A stretch of 64,000 nt of DNA from Podocnemis expansa. Its lineage: Eukaryota; Chordata; Testudines; Podocnemididae. Both the position numbers and the translations under genes were made by a program. This document shows, piece by piece, positions 35,101 through 57,446 of this stretch. The first letter of the stretch is position 1; every line of letters starts with the position of its first letter. A model generated the notes under the pieces. The model saw only the letters and a list, made by a program, of their open reading frames with translations. It was not told the origin of the DNA and did not search any database. The DNA lies in assembly GCA_007922195.1 (NCBI GenBank), contig ML681981.1, positions 12,315,403 to 12,379,402 of the forward strand. The letters run 5' to 3'.

Positions 35101-38100
35101 AGGCTAACGCCCCATTGACTCCGGAGCTGCAGAGCTACACGCGTGTAAATGATGCCCTAGCAAGTTGTTTGTTATTTTTTACTCACTCTTGGCCTGAGTC
35201 CACTTCTGTTCATATAAATGGGAGCTGCACCTGGACCTCAGGGCGAATTTGGTCCAGATGGGAGCCTGGGGACCTCGCGGATCAACAGCGACCCTCCCAA
35301 ACGGAGAAGACCCGCCTGGCTGCTGAGAAGGGGCAAATCTGTCCCGACCAAATCAGTGCCTGGCACCTGGGCTGCCCCTCAGGCCAAACCAGCGTGAGAG
35401 TAAGCTGGTCTCCCCAGTTCTTTCTACCTCCCTTACTCTTTGTCCTGACAGTGTTTGCGAATAGTGGGCTCCATATCGTGCGTGTCTGTCACGACATGTA
35501 AGGGAGAGGGGCACTGAAAGGCTCCGTTCAGGTAAAGGAGCCGAGTAAAGGGTCCGTGGTGGTTCCAGCTCAGAGCAAGGGGTGGAAAGAGGCGGCTGGG
35601 GGCAGCCGGGTGTGACAGGGGTGGAAGTTAAACCCCAGCCGTGTTCACTGTCTCGCAGGAGACCGCGATTGAGCTGATCTTTGCTGCTTTCTTCACCACC
35701 GCCAGCGCCAGCACGTCTCTGATCCTCCTGCTCTTGAAGCACCCCTCGGTGATAGAGAAGATGAGGGAGGAGCTGGGGGCCCAGGAGCCCGACGTGCAAT
35801 GCCGCTGTCTGCCACCGGCCGCCCCCCAAAAGAAACCCTCCTGTGCCGAGCCCCGCCAAGACCCGGCGACCGTCGCTCAGCATCTCTCCCCGCCGGACGC
35901 CCGGAGTCCGCGGCTTGATCCGAAGGAGCCCGGCGCAGCCCGTGTGAACGCAGAGCAGCCAGGGAGACCCGGCGGGGCAGCCGGCTGTGAGTGTCCGCCG
36001 GAGATGAGCCTGGAGCGGCTGAGCCGCTTGCGCTACCTGGACTGTGTGATCAAGGAGGTGCTCCGGGTGCTGCCCCCCGTTTCTGGAGGCTACCGGACGG
36101 CCCTGCAGACCTTCGAGCTGGAGGTAAGGTGCCTGCGGCCGCCTCCTGGCCGCCGGTGTCAGACTCAGCAGCCCCAAGGTCCTTTCGCTTCCCTCCTCGC
36201 TTCTGGGCACCGCAAAGGCCCGATGTCCCTGGCACGGAGGGCTGCATCCTCGGCTCTTCGACGGGCCCCTTGGGGCTCCGGCCTCTGGGCTGCCCCCGGC
36301 CAGCAGGGCACCCTGCAGGGGGCGCACTCCTGGTTTGGGGCTCCCTCCCCACCCCACGAGGGGGGCCCCTGGCTCAGCTGCCCCCACCAGGCTACACCCA
36401 ATTGCTGGGGTGACCAGATGTCAGGGCAAAGAAGGACATGCCTCCTTTTTACCTCCAGCTCTTCTGTCCGGCAGGTATTTACAAATACATGATTTTGTCT
36501 GGCTTTATTTCTTATAGTGGTTCCAGTATGCTGGAACACCCCCTAATACTCTATTGTTAGGGGAAAGCCTTCCAAGGCCCCCTAAAAGCAGAAGACTATG
36601 ACATCAATCCTACATTTTCTCCATACGTCTACACATGCATTGTGATTTCGAAATAAGGATTTCGAAATGAGTTATTTGGAAATCAGTTAATTCGAATTAA
36701 GGGAAAGCCTGCAATCCAAATGGCTGTTATTTCGGAAGGGATATTTCCAAATAAAGCCGTTTGGACCCGTTCTTTCGAAACAGCTCTTTCGAAACAACAG
36801 GTCTACACAGTGTTGTTTCGACAGAACAGCTTTATTTCGAAATATCCCTTCCGAAATAACAGCCGTTTCGAGGGGGCAGGTTTTACTGTTTTGAAATGAA
36901 GATTCTCATTTCGAAACGACGAGTTCCGTCCTTTCGAAATAAGAAAACGTGATGTAGACCTAATTCCTTTTATTTCGAAATAACAAGTGTTATTTCGAAA
37001 TAAAAGTGCTGTGTAGACGAGCCCCATGTGTCCTCCAATGTCCTGCTTTTCCTACCTCCCCGGCCTCCTTTCCAGGCTTTGGGAGCTGGCAGCCGTGCCC
37101 ATTGCGGCTCTGAAAACTCTTGGGTATTGAAGGGATTTTTAAAAACGGCTCTTGTATTTCTTACATTGCCGACCCCCGCCTCAGCATGAAAGCTGTGTAA
37201 CTAGGCGGTTTGTCCGGGGAAAGAGGTTATCCTTAGTAGGAAACACCTGTTAAGGCGCAGGGTTTGATATTTTGCCAAGCGCGGATGCACCTCAGTAAGT
37301 GCAAAATAAACTTGCTCCGATTTTTTGCCGCCTCCCCCCAATTTTACATGCAGGGGAAGCACACAATACTGGGGAAGGTTGCACCCAAGAACCTGGCCGT
37401 TTAAAACAGAAAAAGAAACCCGGAAAGCCCGTAGACATCACATCTCTGGCTCGGGTTTTAAATTAATTTATTTACAGGGTATCCACAAAGGCATCCTCTT
37501 CCCTGGCTTTCCCAGGAGGCGGATTTTACCCGGAATCAGCCATTTCAAAGGTGCCCCGTGGCTGGGTGACTGTGGGGGTGGAAAGGGGGGAGCTCCCCCG
37601 GCGGGGCCGCCCCCAGTGAGCCCTCGGGGCACGCCCGGCCCCGCCGGTGGGAGAAGCAGGGTCGGGTGTGCCCGCGGTGCACGGCGCTGTACACCGGAGT
37701 CCCGCCGGTCTCATTACACGGGCGGTACCCAGCGTTCAGCGCCCCGGGGAGGTGTCCGCTGCCCTTAGAGACCCCCCGGAGGAAGGGGGGTCCCGGCTAC
37801 CCCTCTCGCTGACGCTCCCCTTCCCCCCGCAGGGCTACCAGATCCCCAAGGGCTGGGGCGTGCTGTACAGCATCCGCGACACACACGACACGGCGGCCGT
37901 GTACCGGAGCCCCCCGGCCAGCTTCGACCCGGAGCGGTTCGGCTCGGCCCGGCAGGAGGAGGGCCCGGGGGCCGCCCGCTTCCACTACATCCCCTTCGGC
38001 GGCGGGGCCCGCAGCTGCCCCGGCCAGGAGCTGGCCAAGACCATCCTCAAGCTGCTGGCCATCGAGCTGGTCTGCTCGGCCCGCTGGGAGCTGGCCACCC

Positions 38101-38225
38101 CCGGCTTCCCCGCCATGCAGACGGTGCCCATCGTGCACCCCGTGGACGGGCTGCGCCTTTTCTTCCGCCCCCTGCACCCCGCCGCCCCGGGGACCACAGG
38201 CCAGGGGGTGGGGACCGGGCACTGA
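26161..38225 (+). CDS. CYP26C1: Cytochrome P450 26C1, retinoic acid hydroxylase (six coding exons)
   Basis: This enzyme hydroxylates all-trans retinoic acid (and, from family knowledge, 9-cis retinoic acid) at the ER membrane, clearing the morphogen. Exons: 26161-26364, 26495-26719, 27081-27356, 31165-31320, 35659-36123 and 37833-38225; all introns are GT-AG and phase 0, and the product is 572 residues. Visible parts are a hydrophobic N-terminal anchor (about residues 5-27), a proline hinge [18 protein letters not shown]-helix [16 protein letters not shown] (ExxR) and the haem loop [11 protein letters not shown] with the cysteine ligand. The I-helix lacks the usual acidic residue, as I recall for human CYP26C1 too. 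Oddity: exon 5 carries about 45 more residues than human CYP26C1 between REEL and the KEVLR region, at the position of a CYP26A1 intron. The start at 26161 matches the family; a longer start is possible (see promoter entry). Confidence 0.95.
26765..26935. repeat. GGATATCCGCGGAT palindromic repeat in CYP26C1 intron 2
   Basis: Several overlapping palindromes of the type GCGGATATCCGC and GGATCCGCAT, with variants (TATCCGCGGGTGCGGATAT), are packed in about 170 bp. I recall similar CGGATATCCG-rich dispersed repeats in reptile genomes, but cannot name the family. It is non-coding and intronic. Confidence 0.6.
28119..28200 (-). mobile_element. CR1-like LINE 3' fragment
   Basis: The phrase AAGGACAGAAGGGACTGCAG followed by TCTGACCTCCTGTATTAGCA resembles the antisense 3' end of CR1 retrotransposons of reptiles and birds. 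The fragment is diverged and short. Confidence 0.55.
28870..29470 (+). repeat. Pyrimidine-rich, degenerate repeat tract
   Basis: About 600 bp are strongly C+T-rich on the + strand, with recurring phrases such as CCTTGCCCAG, CCCAGTTC and CAGCTCCTTGATTCC. It looks like a degenerate tandem or low-complexity repeat. No protein is likely. Confidence 0.5.
31321..35658 (+). other. CYP26C1: CYP26C1 intron 4 with an internal CpG-rich block
   Basis: This 4.3 kb intron contains an hAT-type MITE (32751-32922) and a CpG-rich block at about 33.9-35.0 kb, including a TATAAAG at 34727-34733. The block could be an enhancer or internal promoter; nothing in the sequence proves either. The rest shows no recognisable feature. 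Confidence 0.8.
32751..32922. mobile_element. hAT-type MITE with 8-bp target duplication
   Basis: The left end reads CAGGGGTCTCAAACT and the right end reads ATGTTTGAGACCTCTT, which are inverted repeats. It is flanked by the perfect 8-bp repeat TTCTAGGT (32743-32750 and 32923-32930). The interior GAGGGCCGCATGAGGACTAG is shared with the copies at 47.6 kb and 57.6 kb. The 8-bp duplication and CAGGG ends are hallmarks of hAT transposons. Confidence 0.88.
36409..37077 (+). repeat. Dispersed repeat, 'ACCAGATGTCAGG' family, copy 2 (interrupted)
   Basis: This copy in CYP26C1 intron 5 matches the one at 24868 in order: TGACCAGATGTCAGGGCAAA, GTATGCTGGAACACCCCC, GGCCCCCTAAAAGCAGAAG. It is split by a palindromic MITE (36625-37023) and resumes with CCATGTGTCCTCC and GGCCTCCTTTCCAGG. 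The uninterrupted copy gives the pre-insertion sequence. Confidence 0.8.
36625..37023. mobile_element. Palindromic TTTCGAAA-rich MITE, copy 2
   Basis: It is inserted in a dispersed repeat within CYP26C1 intron 5, between CCAT (36621-36624) and CCAT (37024-37027). The ends are ACGTCTACACATG and GTGTAGACGAGCC, inverted repeats of each other. The interior has many TTTCGAAA and TTATTTCGAAATAA blocks and the TTAATTCGAATTAAGGGAAA core seen in copy 1. Confidence 0.82.
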
Positions 38226-39241: not shown

Positions 39242-39624
39242 CGTCTGTGTTCACACAGCACTTTTGTTTCGAAACAACCTCGTTGTTTCGAAACAAAACA
39301 AAAACCCAAGTTCACACCATGCACCGTTGTTTCGAAACAAGTTAAACCCAATTTGGGGTCGAAACAACGTGTGTGAACCTATTGTTCCGAAACAACATTT
39401 AAAGGGCTTCCCCCTCAGCACCCTGGCCAGGGAACACTCAGCACCCTGGCCAGGGTGCTGAGGGGTGTCCCCTGGCCAGCAGGCACTGTGACCCTGCTAT
39501 TTCGTTTCCGGCTTTTTCCCCCTTATTTCGAAATAACAATTTTTAATTCGAAATAAGGTGTTATTTTGAAACAAGTTGTTTCGGCACAACTTGTTTCGAA
39601 ATAACCGCGTGTGTGAACACAGCG
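39242..39624. mobile_element. Palindromic TTTCGAAA-rich MITE, copy 3
   Basis: Ends of the type CTGTGTTCACACAG and GTGTGTGAACACAGC enclose repeated GTTTCGAAAC blocks and the TTTAATTCGAAATAAGG core. A direct repeat, CAGCACCCTGGCCAGG, occurs twice in the middle. The boundary duplication is unclear here. Confidence 0.7.
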
Positions 39625-40474
39625 TGTCTGAAAACTGGCTTGCCTCTTCCTGCACTTCAGTTCTGGCATCTTTCTTTCTGCCCACAGAAAAGACTATCTC
39701 ACAGATATTTCCTATTGGTTAAATGAAAGCTCTCTGCAGTCTACCTTTCCTGTCCAGCAATGGAAAAGGCAGTTACGCTGGCCCACAGTGAAGACAGTTT
39801 AGAAGAGTAATAATTTGTGTAGATGGGTGAATAAGTAATTTCACTTTCAACTGGGGCATGAGGACAACTCATTGAAGTCAAGGAGAAGCCTTCACTGCCA
39901 GGCAGGCGTGTCCAGCCTGCGGCCCACTGGCCAGAAGCCACCGGCCAAGGGCCTGGATGGGCAGAGGTGAAGAAATGGACACTCCTGATATTTACTTGCT
40001 ATATGTTTTGATGGAAAATATGGACACTCCTGCTCTAGGTCAAGCTGTGGTGTAGTATTAAAATGTATCATAGAATTGAGTTGTGGAGCCCAGGTCCCCA
40101 GACTTGTTCCCCTTAGGAAGAAGTTTCCTTTTGTGAAGGTTGACAGCCTGAATCCTGGAGAACTTTTCCGGACAGATCTTCCTTGAATAAATTTGTCCTT
40201 CTGCAGCCTCCGAAAAGGAGAAAAGTCAAAGTATTTGACCCTCTTGTCTTAAACGGTGCCCCGCTGCCTGAAAACTCCCTGGCCTGGTGTATTATTTCCA
40301 AAGGGAGTGTGAACTGTTAGTTCACCTGGGTGGGCTTTCCCAAGCCAGCTCCAAACAGCCAATTTCACCCACCCAACATCTCAGCCACCTAGAGCAAAAC
40401 AGGGCTACCCAGGGTGACAGGTCAAATCTGGAAAAGGTTGTAGGGAAAGTCCCAGTTAAGTGCTGTTGGCAGGT

Positions 40475-40491
40475 TGACCCTTTAGTGAACC
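40475..40491 (-). promoter_or_regulatory. CYP26A1: Candidate retinoic acid response element (DR5), far distal
   Basis: The + strand reads TGACCC-TTTAG-TGAACC; the minus strand is GGTTCA-CTAAA-GGGTCA. Both halves fit the RGKTCA half-site consensus with a 5-bp spacer, the preferred spacing for RAR/RXR heterodimers. It lies about 2.75 kb upstream of the CYP26A1 start codon. I know of no counterpart at this distance in other species, so its function is inferred. Confidence 0.5.
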
Positions 40492-41116
40492 AGCAGCCTC
40501 TGCCCTCCTGACCTTGTCTTTAAGGTGAATCTTTGTGGTGAACGGAGGGGAAATCAGTAGGCGGTGGATCCGAGTGTCAATGACTAACTTAAATTAGCAC
40601 AAGATCCATCCCAAGGCTGCTGACTCTATTGTAATCCTCTGAAAAAAAGCAGGAGACCTCTGATCCACCTCCAGCTCCCTGTTATTTCGGAGGGACCTAA
40701 CCGCTCACCTGGGCAATGATCGGCCGGGGAGCCGGCTCCCTAGCCGGGGTGAGGAGTAATCGCCTACCCGGGGAGGAGTCCCCAGGAGCTAGCTAAAAAA
40801 TCACCCTGAGCACTAACGCTGGGACCACTGGGGAATGAAGTGAAGTGACTCGAGATCCTGGTTTTATTTTCCAACTAAACCCCAGCATTTGCAAGTGAAG
40901 TTAAGGAAGGATTCTGACTTGTAATCCAAGAGCGTTCCGATTAGGCTGGTCATTTCTTGACCCCCTTCCAAGCTGCCTTTAATTGTCCCTTTCACCCTTC
41001 ACCGTTTGCTGCTTTTCGGGCCGACGACTGGAGGATAGCTGGCTGAGGAGATAATAAAGGTTTCCTGTGGTAATTATCGGTGCTCAGGCCACCGTAGCTC
41101 GTTATTTGATGGACAC

Positions 41117-41217
41117 TGAACTTGGCGAAGTTTCGCAGGGTTCATTCAGATGTCACGGTCCGTGTTGTAGGTCACAAGCAGGTCAGAGGATGGGAAAGGG
41201 AGAGAGCCCCGAGGTCA
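41117..41217 (+). promoter_or_regulatory. CYP26A1: Distal retinoic acid response module with perfect DR5
   Basis: A perfect DR5, AGGTCA-CAAGC-AGGTCA, lies at 41169-41185. Around it are TGAACT (41117-41122), an imperfect DR5 of GGTTCA and ATGTCA with a 5-bp spacer (41139-41155) and a further AGGTCA (41212-41217). The module is about 2.0 kb upstream of the CYP26A1 transcription start, matching the position of the distal element plus half-site known for mammalian CYP26A1. It would bind RAR/RXR and cooperate with the proximal element. Confidence 0.85.
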
Positions 41218-42489
41218 TGGCACCGCTTCCCTGCCCCATTCACCGGCCATGCGCAGCCTCGCCGGCGGGCGGGGAAACCGCAAGAGACCCACGGCTTAGT
41301 TTATATAGGTCAGAGGAGGGGCGGGGGACGGGAACAAGCAGCGCTTTAAACATAAAACAGGGGCATTTACCAGATTAAATTTAGGCTGGAAAGATCTGAC
41401 ATATAACTAGATCTCACCTCGGGGCGCAGCAAAGAACCCGCGGCGCCCGTTTACATTGCGCGCACGGCTATATAGGAGCGCGCTGCAACCCGCTACCCAT
41501 AAAAGCTTTTTCAGCACGATGTAGGGACCAGGACTTCACCGACATTTTAGTGAAACGCATCTGAAAAGCCCCTAGCTCTCCGGGGCCGGCTCATTTGCTG
41601 ACAGTGCGACGTTTAGAAATAAACCCTCGTTTTCCAAAATCCGGGTGAAGGAGTCTCGTCCCAAAACCAGACCACGTTCACCTGGATGCGTCTGCTGCAT
41701 AGAAATATCGCGTAGTCAACGAATGCTTTCCCAGATCGCCGTCAAAAGCAACCGGCCCCTTAAATATTAAGGAGAAATCCTGAAAGGGGAGAAATTGGAA
41801 GACAACTTTTTTTTGTTAAGAAATCGCACTCTCCGGTTGATTGTGGTCGGCCCGGGAAACACAAAGCGAAATTTACTAGACATGAAATGAAACTGACCAG
41901 GCGTCCCGCCCAGCTTGAGTGAACTAGGGAAAATCACCATATAAAAGATGACAAAAGAGTGACAGCTCTTTGGATTTTGAAACTTCCTTCTGTTTTAATA
42001 GATCACGGTGCTTTTTGCAGGGACATTTTTTAGGAACAAATATTACTTTGAACCTTGGAGTGACCCCTTTAAACATTGCCCAATTTAGTCACTAATTGAC
42101 AAAAAGAAATCGCGAGGGAAGTTTCAGCCGTGCAGAGAGCACCAGGGGGACAAACAGAGAGAAAAAGTTTTCTAATTTGGAGGCTGTGGAGGGTCTTGCT
42201 TCTATCCATCATTTGCTCTATTTGCACGAAACGGTGCCTGAGTTAAATACAAACATAAAACACGGTGATAGGCGCCTGTCCCACTTCATCCCGTCCTTGC
42301 CGCTTGTCTTGTAATAAAGGGAGCTGCGGCTCAGGGATTTGCGGCCGGGTGCTATCGGTGCAGGTTGGGAGTCCGTGTGTCCGGCCAGCGACGCCCTTTT
42401 CCAGTCCGATATGACCCAGGGTTGGCTCCGCACGAGCCCTTCTCTGCACGCACGACTCGGGCTACCAGCTCCCGAAGCCTGGAAAGGAG

Positions 42490-42720
42490 GCCAGGGAAGT
42501 AGGAAAAGGAGGCCACTGGAGGACACATGGAGCAAATGTAATAGTCTTCTCTTTTTAGGGGACCCTGGCAGGCTTCCCCCTAAAAATAGGGTGTTAGGGG
42601 GCTTTCCAGCATCCTTTAGCCCCTGTTACTACAAAGCCAGGCAAAACCCCGCGTTTTTAAAACGCCTGCTGGACGGGAAGGTAACGAGGAGGACATGTCC
42701 CCCTTTTGCCTGACATCCGC
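42490..42720 (-). repeat. Dispersed repeat, 'ACCAGATGTCAGG' family, copy 3 (inverted)
   Basis: This copy reads on the minus strand: GGATGTCAGGCAAAAGG at the right end, then CAGCATCC, the CCCTATTTTTAGGGGGAAG phrase, and CTCCATGTGTCCTCC at the left end. It is the opposite orientation to copies 1 and 2. Confidence 0.75.
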
Positions 42721-43147
42721 TGACGGCTCGGGGTGAAGCCCGCTCCCAGCCCCGGTTATGAGATTGTCTCTCCCCGAGCGCTGCCTGTCGCTGCCCGCAC
42801 AGCAGGCGGCTGCCGCCCCCGAAGCCCGCAGCTCCGGCTGGGAAAAGGCGGATTCCCTCGGGGAAGCGCCGGTGCTACGTGCCGGGTCAGCCGTCAGCCT
42901 CCCCGGCCGGGCTGCGCTTCCCAGCTCCCGGGGCTTTCCAGCCTTCCTGCCCCCCGGCTGCCCCGCCTCTGCACCTGCGGCCGCCCCCTGCCCCCCAGCC
43001 CAGCTTGCCCCGCCAGGGAGGCATTTCCCGCCCGCCTGGGGGGCAGCCGCCCCCGTCCAGCCTGTGCGCCCGGCGTGCGGGGCCAAGCGGAGCCGGCGGC
43101 GGGCAGGGCGGTTAAAGCGCCCGGGGGAGGAGCCAGGCGGCGATCGC

Positions 43148-43194
43148 TAATTACAGCTGAACTTTGGGTGAACTAATTTGGCCGGCTATAAAAG
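43148..43194 (+). promoter_or_regulatory. CYP26A1: CYP26A1 core promoter: proximal DR5 retinoic acid element and TATA box
   Basis: A perfect DR5, TGAACT-TTGGG-TGAACT, lies at 43158-43174 (minus strand AGTTCA-CCCAA-AGTTCA). A TATAAAAGG box starts at 43187, 13 bp downstream. This is the known proximal element of vertebrate CYP26A1 promoters, through which retinoic acid induces the gene. Directly upstream are a TAATTA homeodomain-type core (43148-43153) and an E-box CAGCTG (43154-43159) that overlaps the first half-site by two bases. The start of transcription should be near 43215, with only a very short 5' leader before the ATG at 43229. Confidence 0.95.
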
Positions 43195-43228
43195 GGGCGC
43201 GGCGGGCGGGAGTGCGGCGCCGCTAGCC

Positions 43229-46200
43229 ATGGGCTTCTTCGCCTTGCTGGCCGGCAGCCTGTGCAGCCTCCTGCTGCCTCTGCTGCTCTTCCTGGCCGCC
43301 CTGCGCCTCTGGCACCTCTACTGCCTGAGCGGCCGGGAGCCGGGCTGCGGGCTGCCGCTGCCCCCGGGCACCATGGGGCTGCCCTTCTTCGGGGAGACGC
43401 TGCAACTCGTGCTGCAGGTAAGAGGCGGGCGCCGGGGCCGGAGGCCAGGCTGGCCCGGAGCCCGGCGGTCACGGCGCTTCCCTCCTTGCAGCGGCGGCGC
43501 TTCCTGCAGATGAAGCGGCGGCGGTACGGCTCCGTCTACAAGACCCACCTCTTCGGCCGGCCGACGGTGCGGGTGATGGGCGCCGACAACGTGCGGCGCA
43601 TCCTGCTGGGCGAGCACCGGCTGGTGGCCGTGCAGTGGCCGGCCTCGGTGCGCGCCATCCTGGGCTCCGGCTGCCTCTCCAGCCTGCACGACGGGCAGCA
43701 CAAGCGGCGCAAAAAGGTACCGCGGCCCCCTCCCGCCTCCCCCGGCCCGGGCTGGGCTGCCCTGCGCCGCCCAGCCCCGCCTGAGCCTGCCCCTGCCCCT
43801 TCCCGCAGGTGATCATGCAGGCCTTCTCCCGGGAGGCGCTCCGGAACTACGTCCCGGCCATGCAGCAGGAGGTCAGCGCCTGCCTGGCGCGCTGGCTGGG
43901 GAGCGGCGGCGCCCGGCTGCTGGTTTACCCCGAGGTGAAGCGCCTCATGTTCCGCATCGCCCTGCGGGTCCTGCTGGGCGTGGAGCCGCGCCAGGCCGAG
44001 CAGGGCAGCGAGCAGCTGGTGGAGGCCTTCGAGGAGATGATCCGCAACCTCTTCTCGCTGCCCATCGACGTGCCCTTCAGCGGCCTCTACCGGGTAAAGC
44101 GCCGCCCGCCCCCCGGGCTCCCCCTGCCCGCCTGCGGCTGCGGGAAGGGGCGGCCCGGCAGCCGGCTGACTTGCCTCCCTTGCCCCCAGGGCCTGCGGGC
44201 GCGGAGCGTCATCCACGCCAGGATCGAGGAGAGCATCCGAGCCAAGATGGCCCGGCCCGGGCCCGCGGGCGGCTGCAAGGACGCGCTGCAGCTGCTGCTG
44301 GAGCACACCCGGGCCAACGGGGAGCCCCTCGACATGCAGGTGAGGAGCCCCAGCTACCGGCATCGGCACCGGCCCGGGGGCAGCCGCCGCCCCCTCCCCG
44401 GCGTCGGGGCCCCGCCGCTGGGAGAGGGCGCCTGACTCAGCCCCAGGACTGCAAAGTGGGGGGACGCTGGGACCGGCTGACAGCTGGGGGTGTTGGAAAT
44501 TCAGGAGGTGTAAAGGGGGTGCTGGGGTGCTCATTACATTGCTATAACACTGGNNNNNNNNNNGGTGCTCATTACATTGCTATAACACTGGCACTAGCTG
44601 ACAGCGGGGGGGTGTTGGGAAATTCGGGGGGGGTGTCCCTGCTCCCATCGATGGCCCCTCTCCCGGGAACCACATGGCTGCGGGGGGACAGAGGCAGGTT
44701 GGCACCGGATCCCCAGGCAGGCAGGAGCCATGTCACTGTTCAAAGGGAGCGAGCTGCAGCACGGTGAAAACCGTCTCCCTGCTTCCCCCCTTGTACTCGG
44801 ACAGTATTCTCCCCGGGACCTGAAATTGGGGGGGACAGGAGGAGGTGTGGCGGGGTGCTCACTATGTTGGTGTAGCACCGGTACTAGGTGACAACTGCAG
44901 GCGTGTTGGGCAATTCAAGCAGGTGAAAGGAGGTGCTGGGGTGCTCACTACATCGGTGTAACACGGTTACTAGCTGACAGCTGGGGGGTGTTGGGAAATT
45001 CAGCGGGGTGTCAGGGAAATCCCTGGTGCAAAGCCGGGAATCCGCTCTTCGGATCAGCCCCTTGTCTTGCTGTGGCTTCCTATTAAACTGCGGTCGGTAG
45101 CTCTGGAGCCCGGGTGGCCTTAAAATCAATTTGTTTTAAAACTGGGTCTCCTGGAGAAGGGTGTTTGGGCAGCGGCAGGGCAGGCAGTGAGCTTGGGGTA
45201 GCTTAACTCCGGGGTGCAGCCGGGTCTCCACAACAGTTTTTTAAACCAACCACCCTATCTGCTCTTTGCCTTAGGAGCTAAAAGAGTCGGCAACAGAGCT
45301 CTTGTTTGGAGGGCATGAAACCACTGCCAGCGCTGCCACCTCTCTGATCACCTTCTTAGGGCTTCACCGTGATGTTTTGCAAAAAATGAGAAAGGAGCTA
45401 CAGATGAAGGTGGGTGTATTCCCTTTGCAAGTTAAACAGTAAACAATACAAAGGAATTTTTATTTCTCCTTGGTGAGAAAGGAGTATTAACTCTCTGACA
45501 CATTAGAAAATACATCTCAGTTACACCCTTTAAAACCATACATTAGGGAAGAGAGCTGAATTTTCAATCTCAAAATGAGATTTGCAGTGATTCAAGCTTG
45601 TTTGAGGAGCCCCTCTGTGGTGAAAAGGAACAAGAAGAGCAGCTCGTACCCTTACTTGTAGCAGTGTGATGTTTAGCTACCGCAAAATGTAATCTGATTT
45701 ATGCGTAGTTTTATTGTTAGCCATTTGCTTTTCCCAGGGTTTACTGTGCAGCATGAACCAAGGCAACAAACAGCTGGATATGGAAGTCTTGGAACAGCTG
45801 AAGTACACAGGCTGTGTCATCAAAGAGACTCTCAGGCTGAGTCCACCAGTTCCTGGAGGATTTCGGGTTGCACTGAAGACTTTTGAGTTAAATGTAAGCT
45901 GTGCTCGGGGCATTTCTTGTAGTAAATCCCCCTCAAGGGTAAGGAGCTTCTCAATAGGAAGGGTCTAACAGTAAGTCAAATTATGATGACAAGGTATACA
46001 GAACCCTAAGAAAGGGCTTTTCTCTGTAAAATATTTGCATCTGTCTGCCTCTGAGATGAACCCTTTACATGTTGGAATTTCTGGACTTTTTTTCTTTACA
46101 GGGTTACCAGATTCCTAAAGGCTGGAACATAATTTACAGTATCTGTGATACACACGATGCTGCAGACCTCTTCACTAACAAGGATGAATTTGACCCTGAT

Positions 46201-46443
46201 CGCTTTATGTCTCCCTCACCAGAGGATTCCTCCAGGTTCAGTTTCATCCCTTTTGGAGGGGGCTTGAGAAGCTGTGTGGGCAAAGAGTATGCAAAACTCC
46301 TCCTAAAAATATTTACTGTCGAGTTGGCCCGGAATTGTGACTGGCAGCTGTTAAATGGACCTCCTACAATGAAAACTGGCCCCATAGTGTACCCGGTGGA
46401 CAACCTGCCAACCAAATTCATAGGTTTCAATGGCCAAATCTGA
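43229..46443 (+). CDS. CYP26A1: Cytochrome P450 26A1, retinoic acid 4-hydroxylase (seven coding exons)
   Basis: CYP26A1 is the main all-trans retinoic acid 4-hydroxylase and limits retinoic acid in embryo and liver; it sits in the ER membrane. Exons: 43229-43417, 43492-43716, 43809-44093, 44190-44339, 45275-45409, 45738-45893 and 46102-46443. All introns are GT-AG and phase 0; the product is 493 residues (human about 497). Visible parts are an N-terminal hydrophobic anchor (about residues 3-25), the hinge LPLPPGTMGLPFFGETL, I-helix FGGHETTAS, KETLR (ExxR), the meander region near FDPDRF, and the haem loop FGGGLRSCVGKE. The start was chosen because it lies 42 bp after the TATA box and matches the family; an in-frame ATG at 43178 precedes the TATA box and is not transcribed. 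All key residues are intact. Intron 4 contains a 10-N assembly gap. Confidence 0.98.
44480..45070 (+). repeat. Tandem repeat in CYP26A1 intron 4, with assembly gap
   Basis: Diverged units contain GGGGTGCTCACTACAT, TAACACGGTTACTAGCTGACA and GGGGTGTTGGGAAATTCAG, repeated about four times. Ten N occupy 44554-44563. A related single unit occurs at 25730-25850. The end of the block (AAATCCCTGGTGCAAAGCC, then CTTCGGATCAGCCCC and a TATTAAA) could be part of an LTR, but this is speculative. Confidence 0.7.
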
Positions 46444-48625: not shown

Positions 48626-49129
48626 GGCTATGTCCACGCATACATGCTTATTTCAATTTATGTTCCATCAAAATAAGTTAATTTGAAATAAAATCCTTAA
48701 TTCGAATTAAGTTAAATCAAAATAAGCAAAAACCTCAAATCGAAATAGCAAGTCCAGACACAGGACTTGCTATTTCAAATCAGGAGAGGGGCACCATGGG
48801 AGGTGCAGCAACATGGCCCCCTCACCGGGCCATGCCCCCAGCCAATATATATATAAAAAGGAAGGCACCCGGAGAAGGGCAAATGTGTTATTTTGACATA
48901 AAGGCTATTTCAAAATAACATGTCCGAACAACATTATTTTGAAGTAACCATTTCGAAATAACAGACTATTCAAATTAAAGTAGGTTTAAGCTATTTCAAA
49001 ATAACATCTCTTGTTTTGAAATGACAGAGCTCGTCATTCTGAAACAAGAAAACGTCGTGTGGACCTAGTCTTTCTTAATTCGAAATAACCAGTGTTATTT
49101 CGATTTAAAAGATACATGTGGACACACCC
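48626..49129. mobile_element. Palindromic TTTCGAAA-type MITE, copy 4, with GC-rich core
   Basis: The ends are GGCTATGTCCACGCAT and ATGTGGACACACCC, flanked by TTT (48623-48625 and 49130-49132). The arms hold diverged TTATTTCGAAATAAC blocks. The centre contains a different segment, GGGGCACCATGGGAGGTGCA through a short (TA)n tract. No open frame of note is present. Confidence 0.75.
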
Positions 49130-56373: not shown

Positions 56374-56497
56374 TGTCATATCATATCATACAGCTGGAAG
56401 GGACCTCATGAGATCATCAAGTCCAACCCCCTGGGAATTGAACCCAGGACCTGCTGCATGTTAAGCAGAGGTGCTAGCTACTACACTATTTGCAGTC
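56374..56497 (-). mobile_element. tRNA-derived SINE with CR1 tail
   Basis: Read on the minus strand, the head looks like a tRNA: TAGTGTAGTAGCTAGCAC, an anticodon arm CTGC-TTAACAT-GCAG (anticodon AAC, as in tRNA-Val) and a B-box GGTTCAATTCC. It then runs directly into GGGGGTTGGACTTGATGATC and AGGTCCCTTCCAGCTGTATG, the 3' end of CR1 LINEs, ending in an ATGAT-type short repeat. A CR1-tailed, tRNA-headed SINE would be mobilised by CR1. Confidence 0.75.
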
Positions 56498-57102: not shown

Positions 57103-57446
57103 GGGTATGTCCACACGAGTCTTTTATTTCGAAACAACACTGGTTGTTTCAAAATAAAAAATTGAATGTCCACACGATGTTTTCTTATTTCGAAATGACA
57201 GGCTCTTTCTGAAGGTTTCTTATCCTTCCTTTATTTCGAAATGGCTGTTATTTCAAAATGGTTATTTCAAAATAACGCCATTTGGACATGGTGTTTTGAA
57301 ACAACATGTCCAAATGGCCTTATTTCAAAATAACCATTTTGAAATAACAGCTGTTTCAAAAGCAGGCTTTCCCTTAATTCGAATTAACATTTTTCTTAAT
57401 TTGAATTAACTTATTTCAAAATAATGATGTATGTGTGGACACAGCC
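57103..57446. mobile_element. Palindromic TTTCGAAA-rich MITE, copy 5, nested in Penelope element
   Basis: The ends are GGGTATGTCCACACG and ATGTGTGGACACAGCC. It interrupts the Penelope terminus CTTAAAGACTAACAGATTTA, duplicating TAA (57100-57102 and 57447-57449). Because the uninterrupted terminus is known from other copies, the insertion boundaries are exact. The interior carries TTATTTCGAAATGG, CATTTTGAAATAAC and TTAATTCGAATTAAC blocks. Confidence 0.9.

Follow-up and report, generated by a model that had tools for sequence, protein, structure and literature searches.

The induction of CYP26A1 by retinoic acid (RA) is a well-studied feedback loop, the elements of which have been mapped in mammals and in zebrafish. 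In zebrafish cyp26a1, a proximal RA response element (RARE), R1, is placed at 166 bp and a distal one, R2, at 1963 bp (PMC5247814), a lamprey paper describes a set R1, R2 and R3 conserved in zebrafish, mouse and human (PMC10879103), and "three and a half" RAREs are given for Cyp26a1 within 2.2 kb, the distal ones lying about 2 kb upstream (PMC7151129). At mouse Cyp26a1, both RARgamma and RXRalpha associate with the distal RARE, and mainly RXRalpha with the proximal one (PMC3905905); in mouse ES cells, RA induction is abolished when both RAR/RXR motifs of an upstream Cyp26a1 enhancer are mutated, and likewise when this enhancer is deleted, as seen in one homozygous clone (PMC8643627). Outside the vertebrates, the CYP26 cluster of amphioxus contains 13 conserved DR5 elements, 12 of which are bound in vitro (PMC5247814).

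We considered the corresponding locus of the turtle Podocnemis expansa in a stretch of 64 kb, called here the window, at positions 12315403-12379402 of its contig. Among the best 120 of the 7,995 candidates scored, the nearest protein relatives of the gene that we identify as CYP26A1 are CYP26A1 proteins: the first match is that of the tortoise Gopherus evgoodei (87% identity over 100% of the query), and the same 120 include the softshell Pelodiscus sinensis (88% identity, with 92% of the query covered), birds (up to 85%) and tuatara (82%). Compared with solved structures, the last exon has CYP120 as its top match (2ve3, E 1.5e-22), and no CYP26 name occurs in the best 60 of 234 structure matches. 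The upstream neighbour, which we take to be CYP26C1, ends at a stop codon at 38225, about 5 kb before the CYP26A1 ATG at 43229, and all three exact DR5 elements of the window lie in this intergenic interval (Table 1). With a TATA box at 43187, the CYP26A1 leader would be roughly a dozen bases long.

Table 1. Features of the CYP26C1-CYP26A1 region of P. expansa, in window coordinates
Feature	Position	Strand	Remarks
ORF containing the last coding exon of presumed CYP26C1	37647..38225	+	same-strand upstream neighbour of CYP26A1; ORF list
Cluster of 7 RGKTCA half-sites containing site 3	40236..40514		half-site scan
Site 3, DR5 GGTTCA ctaaa GGGTCA	40475..40491	-	2,737 bp from its end to the ATG; the CYP26C1 stop lies 2.25 kb upstream
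CpG-rich domain containing R2, R1 and the first exons	41001..44500		CpG observed/expected 0.48-1.12, 250-bp bins
Cluster of 6 half-sites containing R2 and the near-DR5	41117..41312		half-site scan
Near-DR5 GGTTCA ttcag ATGTCA, one mismatch	41139..41155	+	13 bp before R2
R2, distal DR5 AGGTCA caagc AGGTCA	41169..41185	+	2,043 bp from its end to the ATG; pattern scan
Half-site AGGTCA	41212..41217	+	26 bp after R2
R1, proximal DR5 RARE AGTTCA cccaa AGTTCA	43158..43174	-	ends 54 bp before the CYP26A1 ATG; pattern scan
TATA box TATAAAAG	43187..43194	+	upstream of the CYP26A1 ATG
CYP26A1	43229..46443	+	seven exons spliced, 493 aa; protein comparison

Using the pattern RGKTCAN5RGKTCA, we found exactly three matches in the window, all inside 2.7 kb, at the coordinates and on the strands given by the initial annotation, with no further exact one. 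The proximal element had been equated there with the known mammalian proximal RARE, and this is well supported by the sequence itself, AGTTCACCCAAAGTTCA on the minus strand shortly before the start codon, which is letter-identical to human and mouse R1 (Table 1 of PMC5247814). Its distance to the ATG differs, being 54 bp here as against 132 bp in human and 134 bp in mouse (zebrafish, 166 bp; fugu, 103 bp; PMC5247814), and no further half-site is present within 250 bp of it. The R1-core pattern gives no match in viral and prokaryote contigs, as expected of collections without animals.

R2 lies about 2 kb upstream, and the correspondence with the mammalian distal RARE proposed for it is supported by position. 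The locus resembles the mammalian CYP26A1 promoter in its identical R1, in a distal DR5 at about 2 kb (a likeness of position) and in having several RAREs, but differs from it in site 3, an additional exact DR5 placed at -2.74 kb relative to the ATG. It likewise resembles zebrafish cyp26a1, for which a proximal RARE, a distal one at about 2 kb and a third RARE are cited, although zebrafish R2 reads AGTTCA aggat AGTTCA and not AGGTCA caagc AGGTCA as here. Next to R2, the near-DR5 is a candidate counterpart of an extra distal mammalian RARE and the half-site at 41212 may correspond to the mammalian "half" RARE, both by analogy. Since several RAREs are reported for Cyp26a1 and a near-DR5 and a half-site stand beside R2, more than two RAREs are to be expected at this gene. 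Part of the 2-kb R1-R2 spacing in this animal is repeat DNA: 42430-42724 belongs to an interspersed repeat, other copies of which are found at 25162-24873 (74%), 36604-36410 (73%) and 37094-37021 (89%).

Site 3, 0.7 kb outward of the R2 module, is a direct repeat of two RGKTCA half-sites spaced by 5 bp. Among the papers listed in literature searches, which covered few subscription papers, we noticed no account of it. Site 3, R1 and R2 are the only stretches of the window that fit the spacer-inclusive consensus of the DR5 elements bound in vitro by amphioxus RAR/RXR (PMC5247814); shuffled sequences give 0.22 such fits per window. The amphioxus CYP26 cluster is comparable in having several DR5 elements around a CYP26 gene, but its genes are independent duplicates, and we claim no site-by-site orthology. 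Compared with the RARbeta2 DR5 RARE (letters of Rarb2 from PMC4490549, longer letters from the reporter in PMC7527398), site 3 agrees in 13 of 17 letters by hand count and shares the 5' half GGTTCA and the A-rich spacer end, but its 3' half is GGGTCA where RARbeta2, a different gene, has AGTTCA. We also built a matrix from seven printed DR5 elements, which ranks R1 first (27.3), site 3 second (12.17) and R2 only 16th, the last because its training sites are nearly all of the AGTTCA type; unrelated 17-mers score 12.15 and 12.14, level with site 3, and we give the matrix no weight.

How surprising these matches are depends on the comparison made. Dinucleotide shuffles of the window contain 0.15 exact DR5 elements on average and never reach three (0 of 100), and a second set gives a mean of 0.21, again without reaching three (0 of 300). 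The DR5 cluster is real, but two of its three members are the known elements; the initial annotation called the group far beyond chance, which is right of the three taken together and does not apply to the third site by itself, for which P is about 0.01-0.07 depending on the null. When R1 and R2 are granted, the probability of one extra DR5 between the two genes, in the 5-kb interval, is 0.013 from 4,000 shuffles of this interval and 0.019 from the genome count, and P becomes 0.038 (shuffles) when any exact DR1, DR2 or DR5 in the interval is accepted. The flanking 200 kb contain three exact DR5 elements (88077, 119342 and 148286, all downstream), where the genome rate predicts 0.8, and at this density P is about 0.07 (by hand), a value that led us to lower our estimate for site 3 from slightly better than even to even. 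The chance rate first quoted, about one DR5 per half megabase, agrees with base composition, which predicts one per 540 kb, but is about twofold too low for the genome, which has 9,262 exact matches in 2.39 Gb, or one per 258 kb (7,249 for the reversed pattern used as a control). Repeats may account for part of this count: six of 100 genomic DR5 elements listed, from the 9,262, are the identical AGTTCAAAGTTAGTTCA. A foldback repeat of TTAGTTCAAACTAA units at window coordinate 115344-115593 yields AGTTCA half-sites and may inflate the genome-wide figure.

When one mismatch is allowed, the window contains nine DR5 elements, four of them in the 5-kb interval, where 0.70 are expected; the counts for DR0, DR1, DR2 and DR8 in the interval are 0, 1, 1 and 0 (expected 0.47, 0.39, 0.55 and 0.16). 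A scan of the whole window for direct, inverted and everted repeats with spacers of 0-15 returned, beyond the three DR5 elements, only scattered singletons, and no exact DR2 is present in the window.

The densest cluster of half-sites in the window is the one that holds site 3, with seven in 274 bp (40236-40509), and seven within 280 bp are reached in 1% of 300 whole-window shuffles. Besides its own two, site 3 has five half-sites within 250 bp, the same number as R2; given the half-site rate of the window, the Poisson P is 0.006, the 250-bp range having been picked after the cluster was seen. The first eight genomic DR5 elements listed, which are neighbours on one contig and not a random draw, have 0, 0, 1, 1, 2, 2, 3 and 11. 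The 5-kb segment from 39001 has the most half-sites over 264 kb (26, against a mean of 11.8). Once the six half-sites of the DR5 elements are removed, the intergenic interval retains 19 where 11.0 are expected (P 0.015, shuffles), a modest excess, and part of the intergenic excess is repeat-derived, 3 of the 25 half-sites (39309, 39374 and 39489) lying inside a foldback repeat. This repeat (39245-39622) has TTTCGAAA-type palindromes and GTTCACAC-like ends, and relatives of it are found at 1466-1875, 48627-48771 and 57108-57195 and outside the window.

Two further places in the 264 kb, one of them a repeat, have half-site clusters comparable in density. About 42 kb downstream of CYP26A1, beyond the window end, eight half-sites fall within 260 bp (88077-88342) and include one exact match each to DR5 (GGGTCA ggtaa AGTTCA), DR2 and DR1; we found no second copy of this cluster in the 264 kb, and from its motifs, which are richer than those around site 3, it is a candidate distal nuclear-receptor enhancer.

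The CpG landscape separates site 3 from the two known elements. The window has a median CpG observed/expected ratio of 0.22 (500-bp bins), and CpG is sparse around site 3, which stands just short of the CpG-rich domain of Table 1: the ratio is 0.12 in 40251-40500 (2 CpGs), 0.52 in 40501-40750 and 0.40 in 40751-41000, and it is 0.29 for the DNA up to 250 bp from the site. These CpG-poor surroundings suggest that site 3 is outside any methylation-protected promoter domain, though CpG-poor enhancers exist. Nearby, at 39905-40032, a short stretch has ends that by eye resemble inverted repeats, presumably of the hAT type from their appearance, and has no second copy in the 264 kb. Elsewhere in the window, the minus strand has a tRNA-like stretch at 56431-56488 (Rfam RF00005, 34.6 bits), possibly the head of a tRNA-derived SINE.

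Several explanations of site 3 have to be weighed. It may be a coincidental match in intergenic sequence that evolves neutrally, with function confined to R1 and the R2 module, and we regard this as a serious contender, somewhat short of an even chance: such matches are abundant genome-wide, the surroundings are CpG-poor, and P, at about 0.01-0.02 in the interval and about 0.07 at local density, rises to 0.19-0.22 for an extra DR5 anywhere in the window (from shuffles and from the genome rate of 0.248 per 64 kb), the whole window being the space searched for the initial annotation. Chance is less at ease with the fit of site 3 to the bound-site consensus, with the half-site cluster around it and with its closeness to a gene known for several RAREs. 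Delivery by a transposable element appears extremely improbable. Repeats of this genome do carry AGTTCA half-sites, as in the TTAGTTCAAACTAA foldback repeat, and one identical DR5 recurs among those listed, but the 17-mer of site 3 is single copy in the genome and no second copy of 40050-40720 was found in the genome, in a search that skips very common words, or in the 264 kb; a transposon origin is disfavoured on both counts.

Site 3 could also be an old RARE common to amniotes or vertebrates, functional and not lineage-specific, a reading that overlaps with the one we prefer and that we consider rather unlikely. Reports of a third Cyp26a1 RARE exist for mammals and for zebrafish (PMC7151129, PMC10879103; also the title of Li et al. 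2012), but the further sites are described within 2.2 kb or as distal at about 2 kb (PMC7151129) while site 3 is 0.7 kb further out, and the animal already has a candidate there, the near-DR5. It is very unlikely that COUP-TF, HNF4 or some other nuclear receptor, and not RAR, occupies the site in vivo: RARE sites are shared by RAR, RXR, HNF4 and COUP-TFII according to a review (PMC4490549), HNF4alpha acts through DR5 elements (PMC10218549), and a near-DR1 (40412-40424) and a near-DR2 (40501-40514) flank site 3, but DR5 is the classical RAR/RXR spacing and each of the two flanking motifs carries one mismatch, their numbers being close to expectation (DR1, 1 against 0.39; DR2, 1 against 0.55).

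The reading that we prefer is that the region is the conserved RA feedback promoter of CYP26A1, with site 3 most plausibly an auxiliary RAR/RXR site, and we give this an even chance. RAR/RXR heterodimers would occupy R1, beside the TATA box, as well as the distal module about 2 kb upstream, formed by R2, the near-DR5 and the half-site; RA would convert the bound RAR/RXR from repressors to activators, and the induced CYP26A1 enzyme would then remove RA. The function of R1 and of the distal RAREs is carried over from other species, and they presumably work in this animal as well. Site 3, if RAR/RXR do bind it, would be an auxiliary input in a second half-site-rich element, 0.7 kb beyond the R2 module, and would raise the inducibility of CYP26A1 and perhaps of CYP26C1. 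Its fit to the bound-site consensus and the half-sites clustered around it speak for function, and the CpG-poor DNA speaks against it. Judged from its motifs, whether it is a real auxiliary RARE is finely balanced; that it is in addition a lineage-specific one is unlikely, and that site 3 and the cluster at 40236-40514 form a turtle-lineage RA-responsive enhancer serving both CYP26C1 and CYP26A1 is quite unlikely. As a third element, it is a fair candidate, matching the known habit of this gene to have several RAREs.

At present, P. expansa thus appears to have kept the known architecture of the CYP26A1 promoter, plus one testable candidate. If the turtle-lineage enhancer were real, RA clearance would have an extra, separately evolved control element, and a functional further RARE in a reptile would mean that the number of receptor inputs to this feedback loop varies between lineages.
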